A stretch of DNA of 22,025 bases, taken from the IMG/VR virus record IMGVR_UViG_3300048928_000251, positions 1-22,025 of that record, one strand, 5' to 3'. Numbering within the stretch: the stretch's first letter is position 1; each line of letters begins with the position of its first letter. Source of the stretch: a virus. Below the pieces are notes generated by a model, which did not search any database, was not told where the DNA came from, and saw nothing but the letters and a program-made list of their open reading frames with translations. Shown here one piece after another: positions 9,643 through 20,028 of this stretch. The position numbers and the translations under genes are program-made.

Positions 9643-10662
9643 ATGAGCGGGGCTCTTATTAGAATACCGGATAGAATGGGGACGGAGTATATTCTCGGTC
9701 TAGCGCGAACCATCGATTACTACGCACGAAGGGACACCATCCGCATAGAATTTAGCGACCCATGTTTCCTTTCGCCATTTTCTTTGCTTTTTATCAGTTC
9801 GAAACTAAGGTCATTGCAGACAGCAAACCCTGATATTGTCCTTGATGTCAGAAATCATGAAGGACTTACTTACGCTGGCCATATGGGATTCTTCCGAATG
9901 TTTGGATGCAAATTCGGTCGAGAGATCGGAGAAGCTCACGGTAGCGAGAACTACCTGCCCATTACATGTCTATCTCGTGAGGATCTCTATCAGGGCCCTA
10001 TGGATCGATTCTCTGAAATGGGCGACCTTATTCAACGAGAATCTGATAAGATTTCTGCGATCATCACCCGTAATAATTCCAACAATCGCCCTCTGTATGA
10101 TGCTTTGACATTCGCAATACGTGAAGTGATGAGAAATGTCTTCGAGCACAGTGAGACAAGCGAAGTCTTCTATTGTGCACAGTATTGGCCGAACAGTGGA
10201 CGGGTCGAGTTCGCCGTTGCTGATTTTGGCATAGGTATCAGAAAAGGCCTAGGGCAAAACCCAAATTTTCGCTTTCCTCGTGATAAAGACGCTATTGAAT
10301 ATGCACTCCTGCCGAGTGTTTCGGGCAAAACGCACCTTCCTCGAAGGTCCGAAACTTGGTTCAACTCGGGATACGGCCTCTATATGACAAACCGCCTTGC
10401 ACGAAACGGAGGAGGAAATTTCCTGATCGCCAGTGGCAATACCGCCATTCAGCTTTCACAAAAGACTAAGCATAACTTTAAAACATCATTTCCAGGAACT
10501 GTTTTGCGCTTCAATTTAAAGCTAAGTGAGATGGACAACGTCCAGGCTCAACTCGCCGAGTTCCGCAAGGACGGATATGAGCTCGCGAAAACCATTAAAG
10601 GTACTCAAAACCGTCCTCCTTCAGCCATGTCGTTGCTCCTTCGGCGAGACTACAAACCGTAA
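9643..10662 (+). CDS. STAS-like + GHKL (HATPase_c) ATP-binding protein, accessory/moron gene
   Basis: A 339-residue soluble protein. Residues about 1-130 look like a STAS-type alpha/beta domain (IRIPDRMGTEYILGLARTID, then IRIEFSDPCFLSPFSLLFIS, DIVLDVRN). Residues about 150-292 form a GHKL ATPase: N-box E161-x3-N165-x3-H169, G1 box D194-F-G-I-G-I, G2 box N241-S-G-Y-G-L, and a closing strand GTVLRFNL at 285-292. There is no histidine-kinase H-box, receiver domain or membrane segment, so it is not a standard sensor kinase; it is closer to anti-sigma-factor-kinase-like ATPases. The start has a very strong AGGGGGGA site. It reads against the late operon and sits between replication and packaging genes, a classic place for cargo genes. 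A defence or regulatory role is inferred; the partner may be the next gene. Confidence 0.85.
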   Translation: MSGALIRIPDRMGTEYILGLARTIDYYARRDTIRIEFSDPCFLSPFSLLFISSKLRSLQTANPDIVLDVRNHEGLTYAGHMGFFRMFGCKFGREIGEAHGSENYLPITCLSREDLYQGPMDRFSEMGDLIQRESDKISAIITRNNSNNRPLYDALTFAIREVMRNVFEHSETSEVFYCAQYWPNSGRVEFAVADFGIGIRKGLGQNPNFRFPRDKDAIEYALLPSVSGKTHLPRRSETWFNSGYGLYMTNRLARNGGGNFLIASGNTAIQLSQKTKHNFKTSFPGTVLRFNLKLSEMDNVQAQLAEFRKDGYELAKTIKGTQNRPPSAMSLLLRRDYKP

Positions 10663-10813
10663 TTGGGCAGCTTTCCAGATATTTGCAGGGGCGTGATCCT
10701 TGCCTTATCGGATGCCTCTGGGCGGTGAAGGGGCTAACTCCTGCTGCTGACCGCGCACTTGATATTCCTGCTATATGATTAAAGGTCGTCTACTCATACC
10801 TCTTGTGGTCACC

Positions 10814-10842
10814 TTGGACCCACGTTTCTATTTGGTTATACT
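10814..10842 (+). promoter_or_regulatory. Sigma70-type promoter for membrane protein gene
   Basis: TTGGAC and TATACT are separated by exactly 17 bases, each 5 of 6 to the consensus. Transcription would start about 10 bases before ATG at 10859, giving a very short leader. It sits in the 196-base gap after the GHKL gene, so the second gene can be expressed alone in a lysogen. Confidence 0.7.
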
Positions 10843-10858
10843 TATCGAAAGAATATAC

Positions 10859-11344
10859 ATGAGCTCAGATATCGTTAGCAGCATAATTCCGGTTGCCACA
10901 GGAGGGCTGCTGGCACTGTTAGGTGTCGCAATGACACCGGTGATTTCACATGTCCTTACAGCTAAATCTGAAAAGAGAAAGCAGCGCATCGCCAAATTTG
11001 AAGAGCTTTTCTCATTAATCAACGCTCATGATCATTGGATAGACGGTGAAGTGAACCGTTACGCACATGGAGAAAATAGCGAGAGGACACCTGCCCCAAT
11101 ATATCGGGCGTCTGCTATCGTCTCTATATATTTTCCAGAATTAAGACAGACCATTTCTGAACTTGACGTCGAAACTACCCGATACTCACTTTGGATGGCT
11201 GGCGCGGCTAAGAAGCGACTTGAAGGAAAGGTAACTCAGGTCAACGATGGCCTCATTGATGCTTTCAGTGTCTATCGGAAACAATATTTGACGACCGTGA
11301 GGAAGCTCTCTGATTATGCTGTCGAGAAAGGCCCCAACTTATAG
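10859..11344 (+). CDS. Single-pass membrane protein with cytoplasmic helical domain, accessory/moron gene
   Basis: A 161-residue protein starting MSSDIVSSIIPVATGG. An ATG at 10775 in the same frame would give 189 residues, but a strong promoter at 10814-10842 lies inside that extension and no ribosome site precedes it, so I choose 10859. Residues about 8-33 form one transmembrane helix (PVATGGLLALLGVAMTPVIS) followed by the basic run KSEKRKQR, which predicts the rest lies in the cytoplasm. The remaining about 125 residues look mostly helical, with FEELFSLINAHDHWIDGEV and YRKQYLTTVRKLSDYAVEK. No family is recognised. It is downstream of the GHKL ATPase gene in the same direction; a functional pair, with this as membrane effector or anchor, is plausible but unproved. 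Confidence 0.7.
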   Translation: MSSDIVSSIIPVATGGLLALLGVAMTPVISHVLTAKSEKRKQRIAKFEELFSLINAHDHWIDGEVNRYAHGENSERTPAPIYRASAIVSIYFPELRQTISELDVETTRYSLWMAGAAKKRLEGKVTQVNDGLIDAFSVYRKQYLTTVRKLSDYAVEKGPNL

Positions 11345-14939: not shown

Positions 14940-15200
14940 TTACTCCATGCCCAACGCCGACATATAAAGGTCAAGCATGGCGTCTTCTTCCTGACGCTCA
15001 TGGTCTTCCTTTTTGCGTAGGCGAATAATTGTTCGGACGACTTTCTTATCGAAGCCACTGCCATCGAGTTCGGCATAGACTTCCTTGATATCGTCACCGA
15101 TGGTTTTCTTTTCATCTTCAAGGCGCTCAATGCGCTCGATGAAGGCGCGAAGCTGGCCGACTGCAATAACTTGGGCGTCGGATGTGATATCGTCGCTCAT
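14940..15200 (-). CDS. gapR: GapR-like nucleoid-associated protein (DUF2312 family)
   Basis: An 86-residue protein covering the full length of the DUF2312/GapR family. Family traits are [58 protein letters not shown] and a C-terminal [11 protein letters not shown]. Chromosomal GapR of alphaproteobacteria forms a clamp of coiled coils around overtwisted DNA and helps replication and topoisomerases. Here it is the second gene of the cro operon; its ATG overlaps the cro stop as ATGA and has GGAA upstream. It is probably expressed very early and may assist phage replication or divert a host function; that role is inference. The family identity is strong, though orthology with host GapR is not proven. 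Confidence 0.9.
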
Positions 15201-15427
15201 TGGGTATTCCTTATATGATTGGAAATTATTATGGCCTCGCTGGAGCTTTTCATCGCATCCCTAGCTAGCCTATCTATGAATGCTCTAGCTGGACCACGCG
15301 CAGGCAAGCCATTTTTCTCCCATCGCCATATTGTCGACAGGTTAACCCCAGCCATGTCCGCAAGTTGGGTCTGGGTAATTTTGAGTGAGCGCCTAATAGA
15401 AGGCAGATTTATATCGTGCTTAACCAT
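15197..15427 (-). CDS. Cro-like HTH transcriptional regulator
   Basis: A 76-residue protein with an XRE-type helix-turn-helix at about residues 9-47 ([36 protein letters not shown]). It is the first gene of the leftward early operon and diverges from the repressor gene, as cro does in lambda. The promoter-operator at 15435-15463 lies directly upstream. No ribosome site precedes ATG 15427, and the predicted transcript starts near the ATG, so a leaderless message is possible. It probably represses the early promoters or the repressor gene during lytic growth. Function is from position and fold. Confidence 0.85.
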
Positions 15428-15434
15428 GACAATT

Positions 15435-15463
15435 TATGTGCCTTATGCACATTTCAATGTCAA
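15435..15463 (-). promoter_or_regulatory. Leftward early promoter with palindromic operator (OR-like)
   Basis: On the minus strand a perfect TTGACA (15463-15458) is followed 6 bases later by TGTGC-ATAAG-GCACA. On the plus strand the palindrome reads ATGTGC-CTTAT-GCACAT (15436-15452). The -10 is weak; CATAAA at 19-base spacing is the best match. The operator fills the promoter spacer, so repressor binding would block RNA polymerase. The same arrangement recurs at 16907. Confidence 0.75.
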
Positions 15464-15471
15464 GGCGAAAC

Positions 15472-15498
15472 GCACATTGAAAGTGTGCATTATTTGGT
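15472..15498 (+). promoter_or_regulatory. Second operator-like site before repressor gene
   Basis: GCACA (15472) and TGTGC (15484) form an outward-facing pair 7 bases apart. Also TGTGCATTAT (15484-15493) repeats the left half of the TGTGCnTTATGCACA operator, with the right half degenerate. It ends one base before the repressor ATG, so it could give autoregulation. CATTAT at 15489 could serve as a -10, though no good -35 matches it. Confidence 0.45.
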
Positions 15499-15499
15499 G

Positions 15500-15853
15500 A
15501 TGAAATATGACGACAGACCCGAACCAGCTAAACGATTAGAGGAAGCGCGGCTTGCCCGTGGGTTTCGCTTTGCGAAAGATGCCTGCACGTTCTTTAGTTG
15601 GAATTATAATTCCTACGCTCAACACGAATCCGGCCAGCGCGGTCTTGGCAGGGTGGCCGCTAAGTATGCAAAGGCATTTCGAGTCAGTGAAGCTTGGCTG
15701 ATTACTGGCGAGGGACGCGGCCCTAGCGGAGACACCTCTCCACCATTCGAAGAAGAGAACGAATTCAACGACCTTCTTTCAAAGGCGACGGCGGAAGATA
15801 AACAAGCTCTTCTTCATCTTCTTCGATCACTCGTTTCCTCAAAAAACTCGTAG
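15500..15853 (+). CDS. CI-like HTH repressor, short form without peptidase domain
   Basis: A 117-residue protein from ATG 15500 (MKYDDRPEPAKRLEEARLAR). The frame is open further upstream, but that part runs through the operator region. Residues about 9-60 form an XRE-type helix-turn-helix (LARGFRFAKDACTFFSWNYN, SYAQHESGQRGLGRVAAKYA), followed by FRVSEAWLITGEGRGP, the usual end of this domain in phage repressors. The C-terminal about 35 residues are acidic and helical. There is no S24 autocleavage domain, so RecA-driven self-cleavage is unlikely and induction would need another route. It is divergent from the Cro-like gene with operator sites between them. Assigned as lysogeny repressor by position. 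Confidence 0.82.
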   Translation: MKYDDRPEPAKRLEEARLARGFRFAKDACTFFSWNYNSYAQHESGQRGLGRVAAKYAKAFRVSEAWLITGEGRGPSGDTSPPFEEENEFNDLLSKATAEDKQALLHLLRSLVSSKNS

Positions 15854-16190
15854 CCTCGGCTCGTAGTTTGTAATCTAGACTTCCCCACAGGCGCCTAATC
15901 TCAAAATCATAATCCAAAACAGCACTCCTCAATATGTGAGGAATGCTGACTCTTTTGTTCGAACAAATCAAGAACATGGTTACAGAGTAGTTAACGCGGT
16001 GGATAAGCCTGTGGACGCGCCACCTGTACGCGTTACATACGCTGTTGTATTAGCAAATCATTGTAATTGTGCAATAAATGGATTTACATCGATTTAATCA
16101 CGAGGTTGTTACGCCTGCACCAAGCCGCTGCCTCGACTCCAAAATGGGAATCTTGAATGCAGTTTTTGATTTCAAAAAAGGAGCCTTAGA
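15854..16190. other. 337-base gene-free region downstream of repressor
   Basis: No convincing gene is visible on either strand. It holds a terminator-like hairpin at 15920-15957 and a DnaA-box-like GGTGGATAA at 15998-16006 (one mismatch to TGTGGATAA). A strong AAGGAG ribosome site lies just before the gene at 16191. The part from about 16050 to 16180 is AT-rich and could hold the promoter for that gene, but no clear -35/-10 pair stands out. Confidence 0.6.
15920..15957 (+). terminator. Probable terminator of the repressor gene
   Basis: CAGCACTCCTCA and TGAGGAATGCTG pair over 12 positions with one mismatch around a 5-nt loop (15920-15948), followed by ACTCTTTTG. It lies 67 bases after the repressor stop. 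The T tract is interrupted, so efficiency is uncertain. Confidence 0.55.
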
Positions 16191-16481
16191 ATGTGGCGTA
16201 AGATTGAAATTAAAGACCATCTCAATCATCTAGCGAAAGAAGCTCAAATTATGGAGTGCTTTTCATCGTGTCTTATGATTGGTAGCGCAAGCGAAGGGCA
16301 TGAAGCCGTAGCAAAATCCGCAATGTATAAGAAGAAAAATGGAAATCACTTAATCTTGTACTTCACACCCGAAACGGTAAAAATTTTTGATGGCAACTTG
16401 TGGGGAATACAGCAATGCGAAATACCTACAGGCGCAGAGCTTCATATTGGCGATCTGAGACATAATCCCGTTAATCTGTAG
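16191..16481 (+). CDS. Small hypothetical protein in the rex-like position
   Basis: A 96-residue protein (MWRKIEIKDHLNHLAKEAQI) with a strong AAGGAG eight bases before ATG. It appears to be a compact alpha/beta protein: an N-terminal helical region with CFSSCLMIGSAS, then KKNGNHLILYFTPETVKIFD and the strand region LWGIQQCEIPTG. No signal peptide or membrane segment is seen. It lies downstream of the repressor in the same direction, as rexA does relative to lambda cI, so expression in the lysogen is plausible. Its 3' end overlaps the convergent gene by 11 bases. No family is recognised. Confidence 0.65.
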   Translation: MWRKIEIKDHLNHLAKEAQIMECFSSCLMIGSASEGHEAVAKSAMYKKKNGNHLILYFTPETVKIFDGNLWGIQQCEIPTGAELHIGDLRHNPVNL

Positions 16482-16767
16482 AGTAATCCGGCATCGGATA
16501 GCCCGGAATTCGTTCATCTACAGCCTCAAGACCATACGCCTGAACGAGACTAAGCATCGTGGGTATTTGATTGATTATAGTGCCGTCCGGGAAGCCTTCC
16601 GTCAGGCCGTTTGCGTACACCTTAAAGACCCTACCATCGTAGCAAATTATTTCGATGGCCGGGCATTCCATTATACGCAGTACATCATCTTTATTGGCTG
16701 ACCTCGAAGAGATGGCTTCCGATAAATTTTTGAGAAATAACTCCTCGTTCGCTTTCTCAGTATTCAT
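16471..16767 (-). CDS. Small hypothetical protein, convergent gene in immunity region
   Basis: A 98-residue protein from ATG 16767 (MNTEKANEELFLKNLSEAIS), preceded by AGGA at nine bases. ATG codons at 16773 and 16785 are in frame but overlap or precede that ribosome site. The product has an N-terminal helical, charged part, a beta section (IEIICYDGRVFKVYANGLTE) and a C-terminal acidic, Pro-rich end. A possible own promoter (TTTGCA, 18 bases, TAGAAT) lies at 16850-16879. It reads toward the gene at 16191-16481 and overlaps it tail to tail. No family is recognised. A rightward terminator lies just upstream of it, so the two genes may interfere by antisense transcription. Confidence 0.6.
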   Translation of the reverse strand: MNTEKANEELFLKNLSEAISSRSANKDDVLRIMECPAIEIICYDGRVFKVYANGLTEGFPDGTIINQIPTMLSLVQAYGLEAVDERIPGYPMPDYSTD

Positions 16768-16788
16768 ATTCATCAATCCTCTCATTAG

Positions 16789-16819
16789 CCCCGCCCTTCA
16801 CCAGAACGGCGGGGTTTTT
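16789..16819 (+). terminator. Rho-independent terminator, rightward
   Basis: CCCCGCC (16789-16795) pairs perfectly with GGCGGGG (16808-16814) and is followed by TTTTT. It would stop rightward transcripts coming from the repressor or from the gene at 16191 before they reach the recombination operon. This places the end of such RNA antisense to the whole leftward gene 16471-16767. Confidence 0.8.
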
Positions 16820-16849
16820 CATACTGCGATGCCCTTTCGGGATATGGCG

Positions 16850-16879
16850 ATTCTAGTCACTGTGAATAACAAATGCAAA
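16850..16879 (-). promoter_or_regulatory. Possible leftward promoter for gene 16471-16767
   Basis: On the minus strand TTTGCA (16879-16874) and TAGAAT (16855-16850) are 18 bases apart, matching the consensus at 4 and 5 of 6. It points to the gene starting at 16767 and lies outside the operator at 16919-16933. Confidence 0.4.
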
Positions 16880-16906
16880 TTAATGTTCGTTTTGCACATT
16901 TAATGG

Positions 16907-16935
16907 TTGACACTTAAGTGTGCGTTATGCACAAT
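16907..16935 (+). promoter_or_regulatory. Rightward early promoter with palindromic operator (OL-like)
   Basis: A perfect TTGACA (16907-16912) is followed 6 bases later by TGTGC-GTTAT-GCACA (16919-16933), the same arrangement as at the cro promoter. CACAAT at 17-base spacing is the best -10 (4 of 6). Additional half-sites GCACA occur at 16894-16898 and 16975-16979. It drives the recombination operon. Confidence 0.75.
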
Positions 16936-16965
16936 ACATCCATTAACGAACGATGGAGCAGGCAA

Positions 16966-17298
16966 GTGAACATTGCACACCGCATTCCTACGAACACAGT
17001 CAATCACATTCTTGACCGGGAAGTCTATCAAGTGGTTTGGCTTGATCATGCTGGTGATATTTCGATTGATGGCGGCGGCAAGTTTACCGACCTGACCCGC
17101 GAAAGCGCTCTTGACGCCTTCCGTGAAGGCAACGTCCTCAAGGTCTTTTGCGTCAACTTTATCGAAGGCACCTGCCGCGATGTAACCGGCGAAGTTGCCG
17201 GTGAAATTGAATACGAGCAAGAGCAGGCAATCATTGCGGGCGAAACATACATTCCGCGCCTGACGCTTCAAGCTAATTCAGCGGGGCGCACCCTCTGA
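16966..17298 (+). CDS. First gene of the recombination operon, hypothetical
   Basis: A 110-residue protein from GTG 16966. Earlier in-frame ATG codons at 16918 and 16927 lie inside the promoter-operator, before the likely RNA start, whereas GTG has GGAG seven bases upstream. The protein contains EVYQVVWLDHAGDISIDGGG and FREGNVLKVFCVNFIEGTCR, then an acidic helix EVAGEIEYEQEQAI. The look is of a small alpha/beta phage accessory protein; no family is recognised. Being the first gene after the OL-like operator it holds the place of lambda N, but no Arg-rich RNA-binding N-terminus is present, so I do not call it an antiterminator. Its stop overlaps the next start by one base. Confidence 0.7.
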   Translation: MNIAHRIPTNTVNHILDREVYQVVWLDHAGDISIDGGGKFTDLTRESALDAFREGNVLKVFCVNFIEGTCRDVTGEVAGEIEYEQEQAIIAGETYIPRLTLQANSAGRTL

Positions 17299-17393: not shown

Positions 17394-17710
17394 CAAGATT
17401 TCGCAAAGGCGATGTTGTGAGCATCGAGTGCGTTGTTCAGTATCAGTATTCTGAGACCGAGCTTAGCATTCTCCAGCCAAACGGATATTCCGCGATCCTC
17501 ATCGATACGGATAAAGTGACGCTCGTGCGGAACGACATTCAGGTCGGAGATCTAATCAAGAACTCATCCGTTCCCGGTGAACCAGAGGGCCGAGTGCTGG
17601 CCATTCAAGGCGATTATGCTTGGCTTGAAACCTCTTGCGGCGATTACTCAACGTGGAAAATTACACGCTGTGAGCGCGTTGAAACTTCGCAAGCGCAGGT
17701 GGCAGCATGA
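17390..17710 (+). CDS. Small hypothetical early protein
   Basis: A 106-residue protein (MTRFRKGDVVSIECVVQYQY). The start is ATG 17390, nine bases after GGAG; an upstream TTG in frame is unlikely. The sequence looks all-beta, with two KGD/VGD turns near residues 6-8 and 52-54 (FRKGDVVSIECV, DIQVGDLIKNSS) and a third strand set GRVLAIQGDYAWLETSCGDY. This suggests two small barrel-like (SH3/KOW-like) repeats, an impression only. Its stop overlaps the Gp157-like gene start as ATGA. Confidence 0.7.
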   Translation: MTRFRKGDVVSIECVVQYQYSETELSILQPNGYSAILIDTDKVTLVRNDIQVGDLIKNSSVPGEPEGRVLAIQGDYAWLETSCGDYSTWKITRCERVETSQAQVAA

Positions 17711-18225
17711 AGAGTATTTCTCATTCGCTTTTGCGTCAGAAAGAAGCCGCCAAGACAATTTTAGCGCAGCTCAAAGAGGCGGGAATCGACGACGAAGAGA
17801 GCTTTGAAATCGCCATAGAAAGCGAAACAAATCTTCTGGAAGTGATCAGTAAAGCACTCGACAAGATTGATGAGGATGACGTCCTCGATGCAGGTTTGAC
17901 GGCTAAAATCGAGGCCTTCATAGAGCGACGGAACGCGATCCGCAAACAGAAGGACTTTCTGCGCACATCAATTGAGCAGGCCATGCTCATCGCAGAGCAG
18001 GAAACTATGCGCTTGCCTACAGCGACCCTGACCTTACGCAAGGTGAAGCCTGGAACAGTCATTGAAACAGAGGCGGAAATACCTTCGAGGTTTTGGACGC
18101 CACAGGAAACACCCGCACCGAAACTCAACAAAAAAATCCTGCTCGAAGCCCTTGAGGCTGGCGAAACAATTCCAGGCGCTCGCCTCGACAATGGCTCAAT
18201 AATCCTGACCGTACGGAGGAAATAA
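17707..18225 (+). CDS. Siphovirus Gp157-family protein
   Basis: A 172-residue protein of the Gp157 family. Typical elements are an N-terminal acidic helical region with SFEIAIESETNLLEVISKAL, a central long helix with IEAFIERRNAIRKQKDFLRT and SIEQAMLIAEQETMRLPTAT, and then the C-terminal LTLRKVKPGTVIETEAEIPS, FWTPQETPAPKLNKKILLEA and NGSIILTVRRK. Members sit next to RecT/Bet and SSB genes and were described in streptococcal phages; the molecular role is not settled. The start overlaps the preceding gene by ATGA, and the stop overlaps the Bet start (TAATG). Confidence 0.88.
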   Translation: MKSISHSLLRQKEAAKTILAQLKEAGIDDEESFEIAIESETNLLEVISKALDKIDEDDVLDAGLTAKIEAFIERRNAIRKQKDFLRTSIEQAMLIAEQETMRLPTATLTLRKVKPGTVIETEAEIPSRFWTPQETPAPKLNKKILLEALEAGETIPGARLDNGSIILTVRRK

Positions 18226-19163
18226 TGGGAACAGTTACCGTTCTTGAACATACCCCTAAGCAGATCGCGCTTGTTAAGCACACGATTGCAAAAGACTGCA
18301 ATGACGACGAATTCAATCTGTTCATGGAAGCGGCCCGCTCGTATGGCCTTGATCCATTCCGCAAGCAGATCATGCCGCTTGTATTCGGCAAGGCAGCGCG
18401 CGACCAGTCTAAGCGCCGCATGTCAATTGTCGTTTCTCGCGACGGACTTCGTGTCATTGCGCAGCGCTGCAAGAACTATCGCCCAGCATCTGAGCCCGCC
18501 GAAGTTATCTTTAACGAGGAAATGAAGGCTCCAACGAACCCGAAAGGCATTGATTACGCACGCGTTTATCTCTGGCAGCAAGATAACAAGGGCGAATGGT
18601 TCAAAGTTGTCGGCGAGGCGTATTGGGATGAATTTGCGCCCCTTAAAGACGAATGGGCAGAAAATCCAGAAACAGGACGCGGCGAGAAAACCGGGCGCCA
18701 AACACTCGATACGTCGGGAAATTGGGCGAAAATGCCTGTCGTTATGATCACCAAATGCGCAGAAGCTCAAGCTTTGCGTGCGGGCTGGCCTGATCAGTTC
18801 AGTGGCATTTACGTTGAGGAAGAACTCGACCGGGCCAAGACGCTTGATTTGACTGCATCTGAAATTGTCGCGCACAACGCGGAGGAAGAACGCGCCAAGC
18901 GCATAGGTGCACATAATGCGATCACCATCACATGGGGCGATGGATGGCAGCTTGAAAATGTGCCCCTTGGTGAATTTGCAGACCGAGCAGCTGACTTCGT
19001 GAAATCATCGTCGGTCGAAATTGTCAGGCGTTGGCACGATGCCAACAAGCAGCCACTGCAGGTGTTCTGGGCAAAATGCCCGCGTGACGCGCTTGAGCTT
19101 AAAAAGATCATTGAAATGAAGCTCGCTGAAAGACCAACTTCTAAGACAGAGGCTGCAGCATAA
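18225..19163 (+). CDS. bet: Bet/RecT-type single-strand annealing protein
   Basis: A 312-residue recombination protein. The N-terminal about 200 residues match the Bet family: [59 protein letters not shown], and [21 protein letters not shown] charged helix ([19 protein letters not shown]) links to a C-terminal extension with [20 protein letters not shown], longer than lambda Bet (261 residues). It anneals complementary DNA strands in phage recombination and repair. The start has GGAGGAAATA directly upstream. It lies between the Gp157-like gene and SSB, both overlapping by one base. No lambda-exo-type partner is in the window. Confidence 0.93.
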
Positions 19164-19618
19164 TGGCCGCATCAGTAAATAAAGTTATTCTAGTTGGCAA
19201 TCTGGGCGCGGATCCAGAAATACGCCGTACCAACAACGGCGACATGATCGCCAACTTACGAATTGCCACGTCAGAAAGCTGGCGTGATAGGAACACTGGA
19301 GAGCGTAAAGACCGCACTGAATGGCATAGCGTGGTCATCTTCAATGAAAATCTTGCAAAGGTTGCCGAGCAATATCTCCGCAAAGGCGCAAAGGTTTATC
19401 TTGAAGGCGCTCTCCAGACCCGGAAATGGCAAGATCAGAACGGCAATGATCGGTATTCGACCGAAGTTGTTTTGCAGAAATTCCGAGGAGAATTGCAGAT
19501 GCTCGATAGCCAAAGCGAGCGATCCGATCAGTCAGACCGGCGACAAGAAACGCTGGCCCAGCCCAACGGTCAATCGGGCGGATTTAGCCGTGACCTTGAC
19601 GACGAAATCCCGTTCTAA
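19163..19618 (+). CDS. ssb: Single-stranded DNA-binding protein
   Basis: A 151-residue SSB. The OB fold covers about residues 4-112 ([20 protein letters not shown], then [57 protein letters not shown]). Trp40, Trp54 and Trp89 correspond to stacking positions in bacterial SSB. A polar linker about 115-143 leads to the acidic tip DLDDEIPF, which recruits replication and repair proteins in bacterial SSB. It overlaps the Bet stop by one base and is probably co-translated with it. It protects single strands during phage replication and annealing. Confidence 0.96.
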
Positions 19619-19626
19619 GATCGGCC

Positions 19627-20028
19627 ATGTCGCAGACAGTAATTCTTCGCGGAGACAGCCAGCGCCACTTTGCAAAGCATCTGATTGAGATTGCACCGAC
19701 TGACGCTGTTGTTTCGATCAGAGAGGCAAACCGTTCGAACGATCAGAACGCGAAAATGTGGGCGATGCTTTCAGATATTTCGCGGGCAAAGCCAGAGGGG
19801 CGCAAGTGGAACCCTGAGACTTGGAAATGCGCTTTTATGCATGTTCTGGGTCATCAAGTGAAATTCTGTGAAGGGCTAGACGCATCCGGCCCTTTTCCTC
19901 TGGGTTTCAAATCCTCACGTCTAACCGTCCGGCAGATGGCCGATCTCATAACCTGTATTCAGGAGTACGGAGACAGGCGCCAGATCCGATGGAGCGACAC
20001 AGATAAATTACCGGGATATTTTTCATGA
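19627..20028 (+). CDS. ninB: NinB/Orf-family recombination mediator
   Basis: A 133-residue protein of the NinB family; lambda Orf (NinB) is 146 residues. Traits are an N-terminal strand VILRGDSQRHFAKHLIEIAP, the conserved helix start NRSNDQNAKMWAMLSDISRA, then KWNPETWKCAFMHVLGHQVK, and the C-terminal SSRLTVRQMADLITCIQEYG. Lambda Orf binds SSB and single-stranded DNA and can stand in for RecFOR. The gene is 8 bases after ssb, fitting this partnership. The ribosome site is weak. The stop overlaps the next start (ATGA). Confidence 0.9.
   Translation: MSQTVILRGDSQRHFAKHLIEIAPTDAVVSIREANRSNDQNAKMWAMLSDISRAKPEGRKWNPETWKCAFMHVLGHQVKFCEGLDASGPFPLGFKSSRLTVRQMADLITCIQEYGDRRQIRWSDTDKLPGYFS

Follow-up and report, generated by a model that had tools for sequence, protein, structure and literature searches.

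The 22,025-base stretch of viral DNA analyzed here (the window) carries what is, in our judgment, with high probability the immunity region of a lambda-type temperate phage, in which the protein encoded at 15500-15853 would be the CI repressor, acting at both PR and PL through operators that the two promoters share. By all the sequence features that we tested, the region belongs with the lambda-type switches and would be expected to work like one. The switch nevertheless looks unusual in two respects: its cro gene appears to be leaderless, and its repressor is a short protein with no LexA-like protease domain, unlike those of most of the relatives examined.

Operators and promoters in the window

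The first-pass annotation of this DNA had placed the composite motif TTGACA-N6-TGTGC-N5-GCACA upstream of cro on the minus strand and upstream of the recombination operon on the plus strand. Both copies are exact and there is none besides them in the window: the minus-strand copy spans 15463-15437 (TTGACA at 15463-15458, six nucleotides, palindrome at 15451-15437) and the plus-strand copy 16907-16933 (TTGACA at 16907-16912, six nucleotides, palindrome at 16919-16933), so that OR1 and OL1 lie 1.48 kb apart (Table 1). Allowing up to three mismatches in the composite motif still returned the same two copies (0.21 expected), and the palindrome TGTGCN5GCACA on its own was observed twice where shuffled sequences gave an expectation of 0.02. 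The third, half-degenerate copy that had been reported just before the repressor start is also real (TGTGCATTATTTGGT), but the tally of sites was incomplete in that OR2 and OL2 had been missed. With these included, the left region reads as a three-operator OR and the right region as a two-operator OL.

Two other elements of the original description had to be narrowed or widened. The half-sites of the consensus TGTGCnTTATGCACA stand, whereas its fixed centre is too narrow a definition, the conserved part of the operator being two 5-base half-sites around a 5-base centre that varies (TGTGCATAAGGCACA in the window, TGTGCCTAATGCACA and others in relatives). Similarly, the palindrome was said to fill the spacer between the -35 and -10 boxes, but it is not confined to those 17 nt, because the final four bases of each perfect palindrome (CACA) are the opening four of the -10 hexamer. 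A further match at 16965-16979, with two mismatches and lying over the start of the first PL gene, was rejected as an operator; at two mismatches the window holds 11 matches against 12.4 expected.

The repressor and Cro-like HTH genes diverge from a common operator region, in which several similar operators (OR1-OR3) cover PR and a putative PRM, and the operator is repeated past the repressor gene at the second early promoter, PL. The operator centres are 22 bp (OR3-OR2) and 25 bp (OR2-OR1) apart, in an order that is the same in relatives, where OR3 is more symmetric than it is in the window. Within OR3 is the hexamer CATTAT (15488-15493), six bases upstream of the repressor ATG, which is a candidate for the -10 box of the repressor promoter. 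The matching -35 of this putative promoter would fall within OR2, and for this reason activation from OR2 in the style of lambda is not evident.

Table 1. Operators, promoter boxes and genes of the putative immunity region and its flanks.
Feature	Positions	Strand	Basis and remarks
GapR-like (PF10073, DUF2312) gene, overlaps cro stop	14940..15200	-	E 1.9e-32
Cro-like HTH protein, 76 aa, gene 1 of PR operon	15197..15427	-	HTH_3 PF01381, E 1.7e-5
PR -10-like hexamer CACATA	15435..15440	-	Sequence; 7 nt before cro ATG (15427)
OR1 TGTGCATAAGGCACA (minus-strand letters)	15437..15451	-	Perfect 5-5-5 palindrome between PR -35 and -10; place conserved in relatives
PR (cro promoter) -35 TTGACA	15458..15463	-	Sequence; TTGAC at same place in 48 of 53 non-redundant loci
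OR2 TGTGCGTTTCGCCTT (minus-strand letters)	15462..15476	-	One half-site intact, other overlapping -35; position same in relatives
OR3 TGTGCATTATTTGGT	15484..15498	+	One half-site intact; ends 1 nt before repressor ATG (15500)
CI-like short repressor, 117 aa; HTH and C-terminal helical hairpin, no S24 domain	15500..15853	+	PHROG transcriptional repressor matches
Stem-loop, 12 pairs, T-rich tail	15920..15948		Scan assigns it to minus strand; by eye, both sides T-rich
OL2 TGTTCGTTTTGCACA	16884..16898	+	35 bp upstream of OL1; at least two downstream sites in 53 of 61 loci
PL -35 TTGACA	16907..16912	+	Sequence
OL1 TGTGCGTTATGCACA	16919..16933	+	Perfect 5-5-5 palindrome between PL -35 and -10
PL -10 CACAAT	16930..16935	+	Sequence; 17-nt spacer
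First gene of PL operon	16966..17298	+	ORF list; probable GTG start at 16966 behind GGAGCAGG
Gp157-like gene, PL operon	17707..18225	+	Family match
RecT-family annealing protein, PL operon	18225..19163	+	Family match
SSB, PL operon	19163..19618	+	Identified by reading the protein sequence
NinB, PL operon	19627..20028	+	Family match

The stem-loop that follows the repressor gene is likely a terminator and, given its T-rich tail, the repressor transcript probably stops before PL. Further genes on the minus strand include a P22-like portal and a terminase. We found no close relative of the window Cro in phage records. DUF2312 genes are also present in the cro operons of Microcystis phage Mwe-JY08 and Rhizobium phage RHph_TM3_3_3. 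Two orphan genes without a family match, at 16191-16481 (plus strand) and 16471-16785 (minus strand), lie between the repressor and PL; in other relatives with a short repressor about 0.6 kb is all that separates OL from the start of the repressor gene, too little space for these two genes. Elsewhere in the window, a gene on the opposite strand (9643-10662, plus), with structural genes to one side and replication genes to the other, has a 339-aa product that contains a histidine-kinase-like ATPase domain (HATPase_c_2, E 4e-5, just under the Pfam cut-off), and is possibly a cargo or defence gene; the next protein, at 10775-11344, has no family match.

Relatives collected by their repressors

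A scan of viral contigs for the motif alone gave 21 loci, several of which (L006, L012, L014, L018 and L019), having no visible HTH pair, were chance matches. Relatives were therefore gathered through the HTH domain of the repressor and not through the motif, the query alignment itself having been assembled from the window together with loci that bear the motif. This search yielded 38 loci, comprising 29 viral contigs and nine genome loci (Rhizobium, Pseudochrobactrum, Martelella, Falsochrobactrum, Bartonella, Jiella and a Rhizobiaceae MAG). A TGTGC-type OR1 (up to one mismatch) is present 60-70 bp before the repressor start, and pointing away from it, in 26 of the 38, and in all 26 the site recurs once or twice downstream, 0.57-3.2 kb past the repressor start, mostly paired 32-35 bp apart and sometimes 23. 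The remaining 12 loci, together with more distant loci that were added via two broader alignments, retain the same frame, that is, TTGAC, six bases, a 5-5-5 palindrome and an ATG about nine bases on, with other half-sites in it: TATGC/GATGC, TTTGC, TACTC, TGTGA, TTGGC/CTGGC, AATGC, AGTGC and AATAC. For the distant relatives OR1 was chosen by a score that favours palindromes, and about nine distant loci that were incomplete or had no clear OR1 were excluded. Scanning relatives had been suggested along with the motif, and in nearly every relative collected by protein OR and OL proved to carry one and the same half-site.

Among five repressors from TGTGC loci scanned for Peptidase_S24, four matched (L011, L003 and L020 above the Pfam cut-off, L005 just below it) and a short form (L007) did not; since all five share the same sites, the site pattern is independent of the C-terminal half of the repressor. 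The distance from palindrome to cro ATG was mostly 8-10 nt in 53 loci (shorter gaps arose where the script took an earlier ATG), and no SD-like motif was found upstream of cro in any of the 53. From these two features, the cro mRNA is probably leaderless.

Several individual loci are worth recording. The densest case is a 28-kb contig (L004/L140) with five exact copies of TGTGCN5GCACA in two clusters 1.8 kb apart. In the AATGC class (L118-L130) OR2 is often a full palindrome whose final TT is shared with the -35 TTGACA (AATGCGATAGGCATTGACA), whereas in the TGTGC class OR2 is half-degenerate. Two phages whose recorded hosts are Microcystis (Mwe-JY08, PP395640.1) and Synechococcus (PP438430.1) carry repressors of this alphaproteobacterial family, that of Mwe-JY08, the phage with a DUF2312 gene mentioned above, having 48% identity to the repressor of L011; the true hosts of both may be associated Alphaproteobacteria. 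Judged by its relatives, the host of the window prophage would be a Rhizobium-like bacterium.

OR and OL letters change together

If one protein reads both operator regions, then a prophage whose OR has other letters should have those same letters at OL. When each locus was searched with the letters of its own OR1, a second copy was found 250-3500 bp downstream in 59 of 61 loci and at least two copies in 53, with TTGAC at the proper distance in 37. The density of own-letter copies in that interval was 0.68 per kb, compared to 0.054 per kb in the remainder of those loci. In a swap control, in which labels were permuted 5000 times over 53 non-redundant loci, there were 51 own-letter matches with up to one mismatch against a permuted mean of 29.6 and a maximum of 40, and exact copies were present in 36 of the 53 against a mean of 9.9 and a maximum of 20. 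The 23 loci without a TGTGC half-site make the same point: 17 had an exact copy in their own letters and none had an exact copy of TGTGC. That the letters at OR and OL change together would most simply mean that a single DNA-binding specificity acts at both ends. The earlier proposal of one repressor for both early operons, in a mirror-image lambda layout, thus gains support from the half-site that OR and OL share and from its co-variation across classes, and very probably a single repressor shuts both early promoters. The sites, promoter boxes and geometry, as well as this concerted change across prophages, are read directly from the DNA; from them we infer protein binding, repression, an order of occupancy and a role for Cro, as follows.

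A dimer of the 117-aa protein, as the lysogenic (CI) repressor, would read two TGTGC half-sites five bases apart. Bound at OR1 it would block RNA polymerase at PR, and hence cro and gapR, and bound at OL1 it would do the same at PL, which leads to recT, ssb and ninB, in both cases between and on the -35 and -10 boxes. OR2, OR3 and OL2 would be weaker sites that add to occupancy. OR3 would also cover the putative repressor promoter, and because it touches the repressor start and holds the -10-like CATTAT, either repressor or Cro bound there should lower repressor synthesis. Cro would bind the same sites during the lytic state.

The repressor and its specificity

The only PDB entries matched in sequence by the repressor profile were those of the 434 repressor (E 0.016). 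Co-crystals have established the contacts between the recognition helix of the 434 repressor and its operator. Across 39 close loci, residues 40 and 37 of the repressor showed the strongest association with half-site class of all columns, by a statistic that ignores shared ancestry, and these two align with Glu32 and Gln29 of that recognition helix. Residue 40 as the sole specificity switch was ruled out by distant AATGC loci, which have A, S, T or V there under the same letters, so that residues 37 and 40 do not set specificity alone and further residues must contribute.

An AlphaFold2 model of the window repressor (mean pLDDT 86.9) has the five-helix HTH DNA-binding domain of the 434/P22 type (XRE fold), with the HTH pair formed by helices 25-32 and 36-43, and a C-terminal hairpin at 84-116. 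Its fold matches included P22 c2 (Z 9.6, 2.0 A over 64 residues) and the 434 repressor (2or1; Z 9.2, 1.8 A over 63 residues). We found no Pfam family for the window repressor and, in either it or the short form of L007, no match to the C-terminal Peptidase_S24 of self-cleaving LexA/CI repressors. The short form without S24 is conserved in at least six further prophages and has its own conserved C-terminal helices. As neither the window repressor nor this conserved short family has the S24 domain, self-cleavage of the LexA kind, going by the protein sequence, cannot induce the window prophage. An antirepressor is the likeliest substitute; in the ORF list of one relative with a short repressor (L062), none was recognised near the repressor.

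Could the sites have been kept mainly by Cro, with the 15500-15853 protein now a minor or defunct regulator that has lost its protease and oligomerisation domain? The lack of Peptidase_S24, which is present in most relatives examined, and the Cro-like gene that adjoins OR1 in nearly all loci are what such a history would lead one to expect, and Cro could contribute to conservation of the operators. We nevertheless consider it improbable that Cro is the main reason, because the conservation of the short form with its C-terminal helices is not that of fresh decay, because half-site letters are associated with the recognition helix of the repressor, and because two Cro subtypes (VNLSTVWRWE and VDRSSVSRME) both occur at loci with the same TGTGC sites.

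Motif copies in host genomes

The virus record has no host sequence, and the genomes of four related hosts (4.5-6.7 Mb) were used to stand in for that of the window's own host. Many copies elsewhere in the host genome had been named as an outcome that would count against the motif, and this outcome was not seen in the four genomes, which had 3, 6, 14 and 2 exact copies, with 2, 3, 0 and 1 for reversed-pattern controls. In Rhizobium daejeonense all three copies are the OR1 and OL pair of its prophage, and nearly all of the 14 copies in Pseudochrobactrum (control 0) have unlike centres. In Rhizobium sp. Root1203, the two extra copies that were inspected (C12:531427 and C45:60959) were rejected as chance, being without a TTGACA or HTH context.

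These counts bear on a second alternative, that the palindromes bind a host regulator by which the two phage promoters are coordinated. The site is indeed common to both, and host CtrA has been reported to control phage genes in Alphaproteobacteria (PMC9437464). However, related-host genomes hold few copies, the two Root1203 extras lack such a promoter context, and the letters vary among prophages, even within Rhizobiales hosts, yet agree between OR and OL within a prophage, making a host regulator very improbable. Still harder to credit is that the palindromes are RNA hairpins (attenuators or terminators) or incidental promoter sequence, since, although a simple scan reports weak stems near OR2 and OR3, OR1 and OL1 end upstream of the inferred transcription start and would thus lie outside transcripts from their own promoters, and conservation is limited to the two 5-base arms, at a fixed distance to the -35 box and in promoter orientation, while the 5 bases of the centre are free to vary.

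Comparison with known systems

In lambda the repressor and Cro genes are divergent, OR has three sites spaced about 23 bp apart, a separate OL precedes the recombination operon, and the operator is 17 bp. The window shares with lambda the divergent genes, the three-site OR, the separate OL before a recombination operon, operators that overlap the -35 and -10 boxes, and a repressor gene transcribed towards PL. It differs in that its map is flipped, its operator is 15 bp in total (TGTGC half-sites with a 5-bp gap), its OL has two clear sites 35 bp apart, its cro looks leaderless, the putative -35 of its repressor promoter is overlain by OR2, so that activation in the manner of lambda is not obvious, and its 117-aa repressor has no self-cleaving domain. 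The 434 repressor is the sole PDB sequence match, with the same HTH fold and the specificity-associated residues at recognition-helix positions, but identity is 24%, its operator has other letters and another length, and the window repressor is without a peptidase domain.

Other counterparts are the S24/LexA-like CI proteins of Rhizobiales prophages, for example those of L011, L046 and L055, whose HTH is about 70% identical over 72 residues and whose operators and OR/OL geometry are the same. Members of this group scanned for Peptidase_S24 have it, and SOS induction is expected for them, unlike the window repressor, which lacks the domain. By its description, the LexA-like CI of the rhizoviticin locus (PMC10811719) groups with these; for that Allorhizobium tailocin locus a LexA-like CI repressor was proposed, without operator sites. 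Among isolated phages, Caulobacter phage DMCA and Rhizobium phage RHph_TM3_3_3 also have a 5-5-5 palindrome before a cro-like gene and, about 2.3-2.4 kb away, two sites with similar letters at a spacing of 26 bp, but their half-sites differ (AATGC/AGTGC; CGTAC) and their repressors are only distantly related. Two papers on other temperate phages of rhizobia and Brucella (PMC4729917, PMC12429752) did not find operators in them, and our search of the open-access literature found no earlier report of the operator sequence.

Implications for a possible phage family

We lean towards a view in which these loci represent an alphaproteobacterial phage family with a fixed frame (TTGAC-N6-5-5-5 and a leaderless cro ATG), within which at least eight immunity classes have diversified together with the recognition helix, and of which one S24-less branch, including the window, is induced otherwise than by RecA-stimulated cleavage, for instance by an antirepressor. 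The frame gives a simple rule by which OR and OL may be located in this phage group and prophages that share immunity predicted, and the short, protease-less branch poses the question of by which route such prophages are induced. The paired sites and repressors are a natural data set on the joint change of an HTH repressor and its operators and, if at least eight classes have indeed changed in step with the recognition helix, they would form a natural specificity series.
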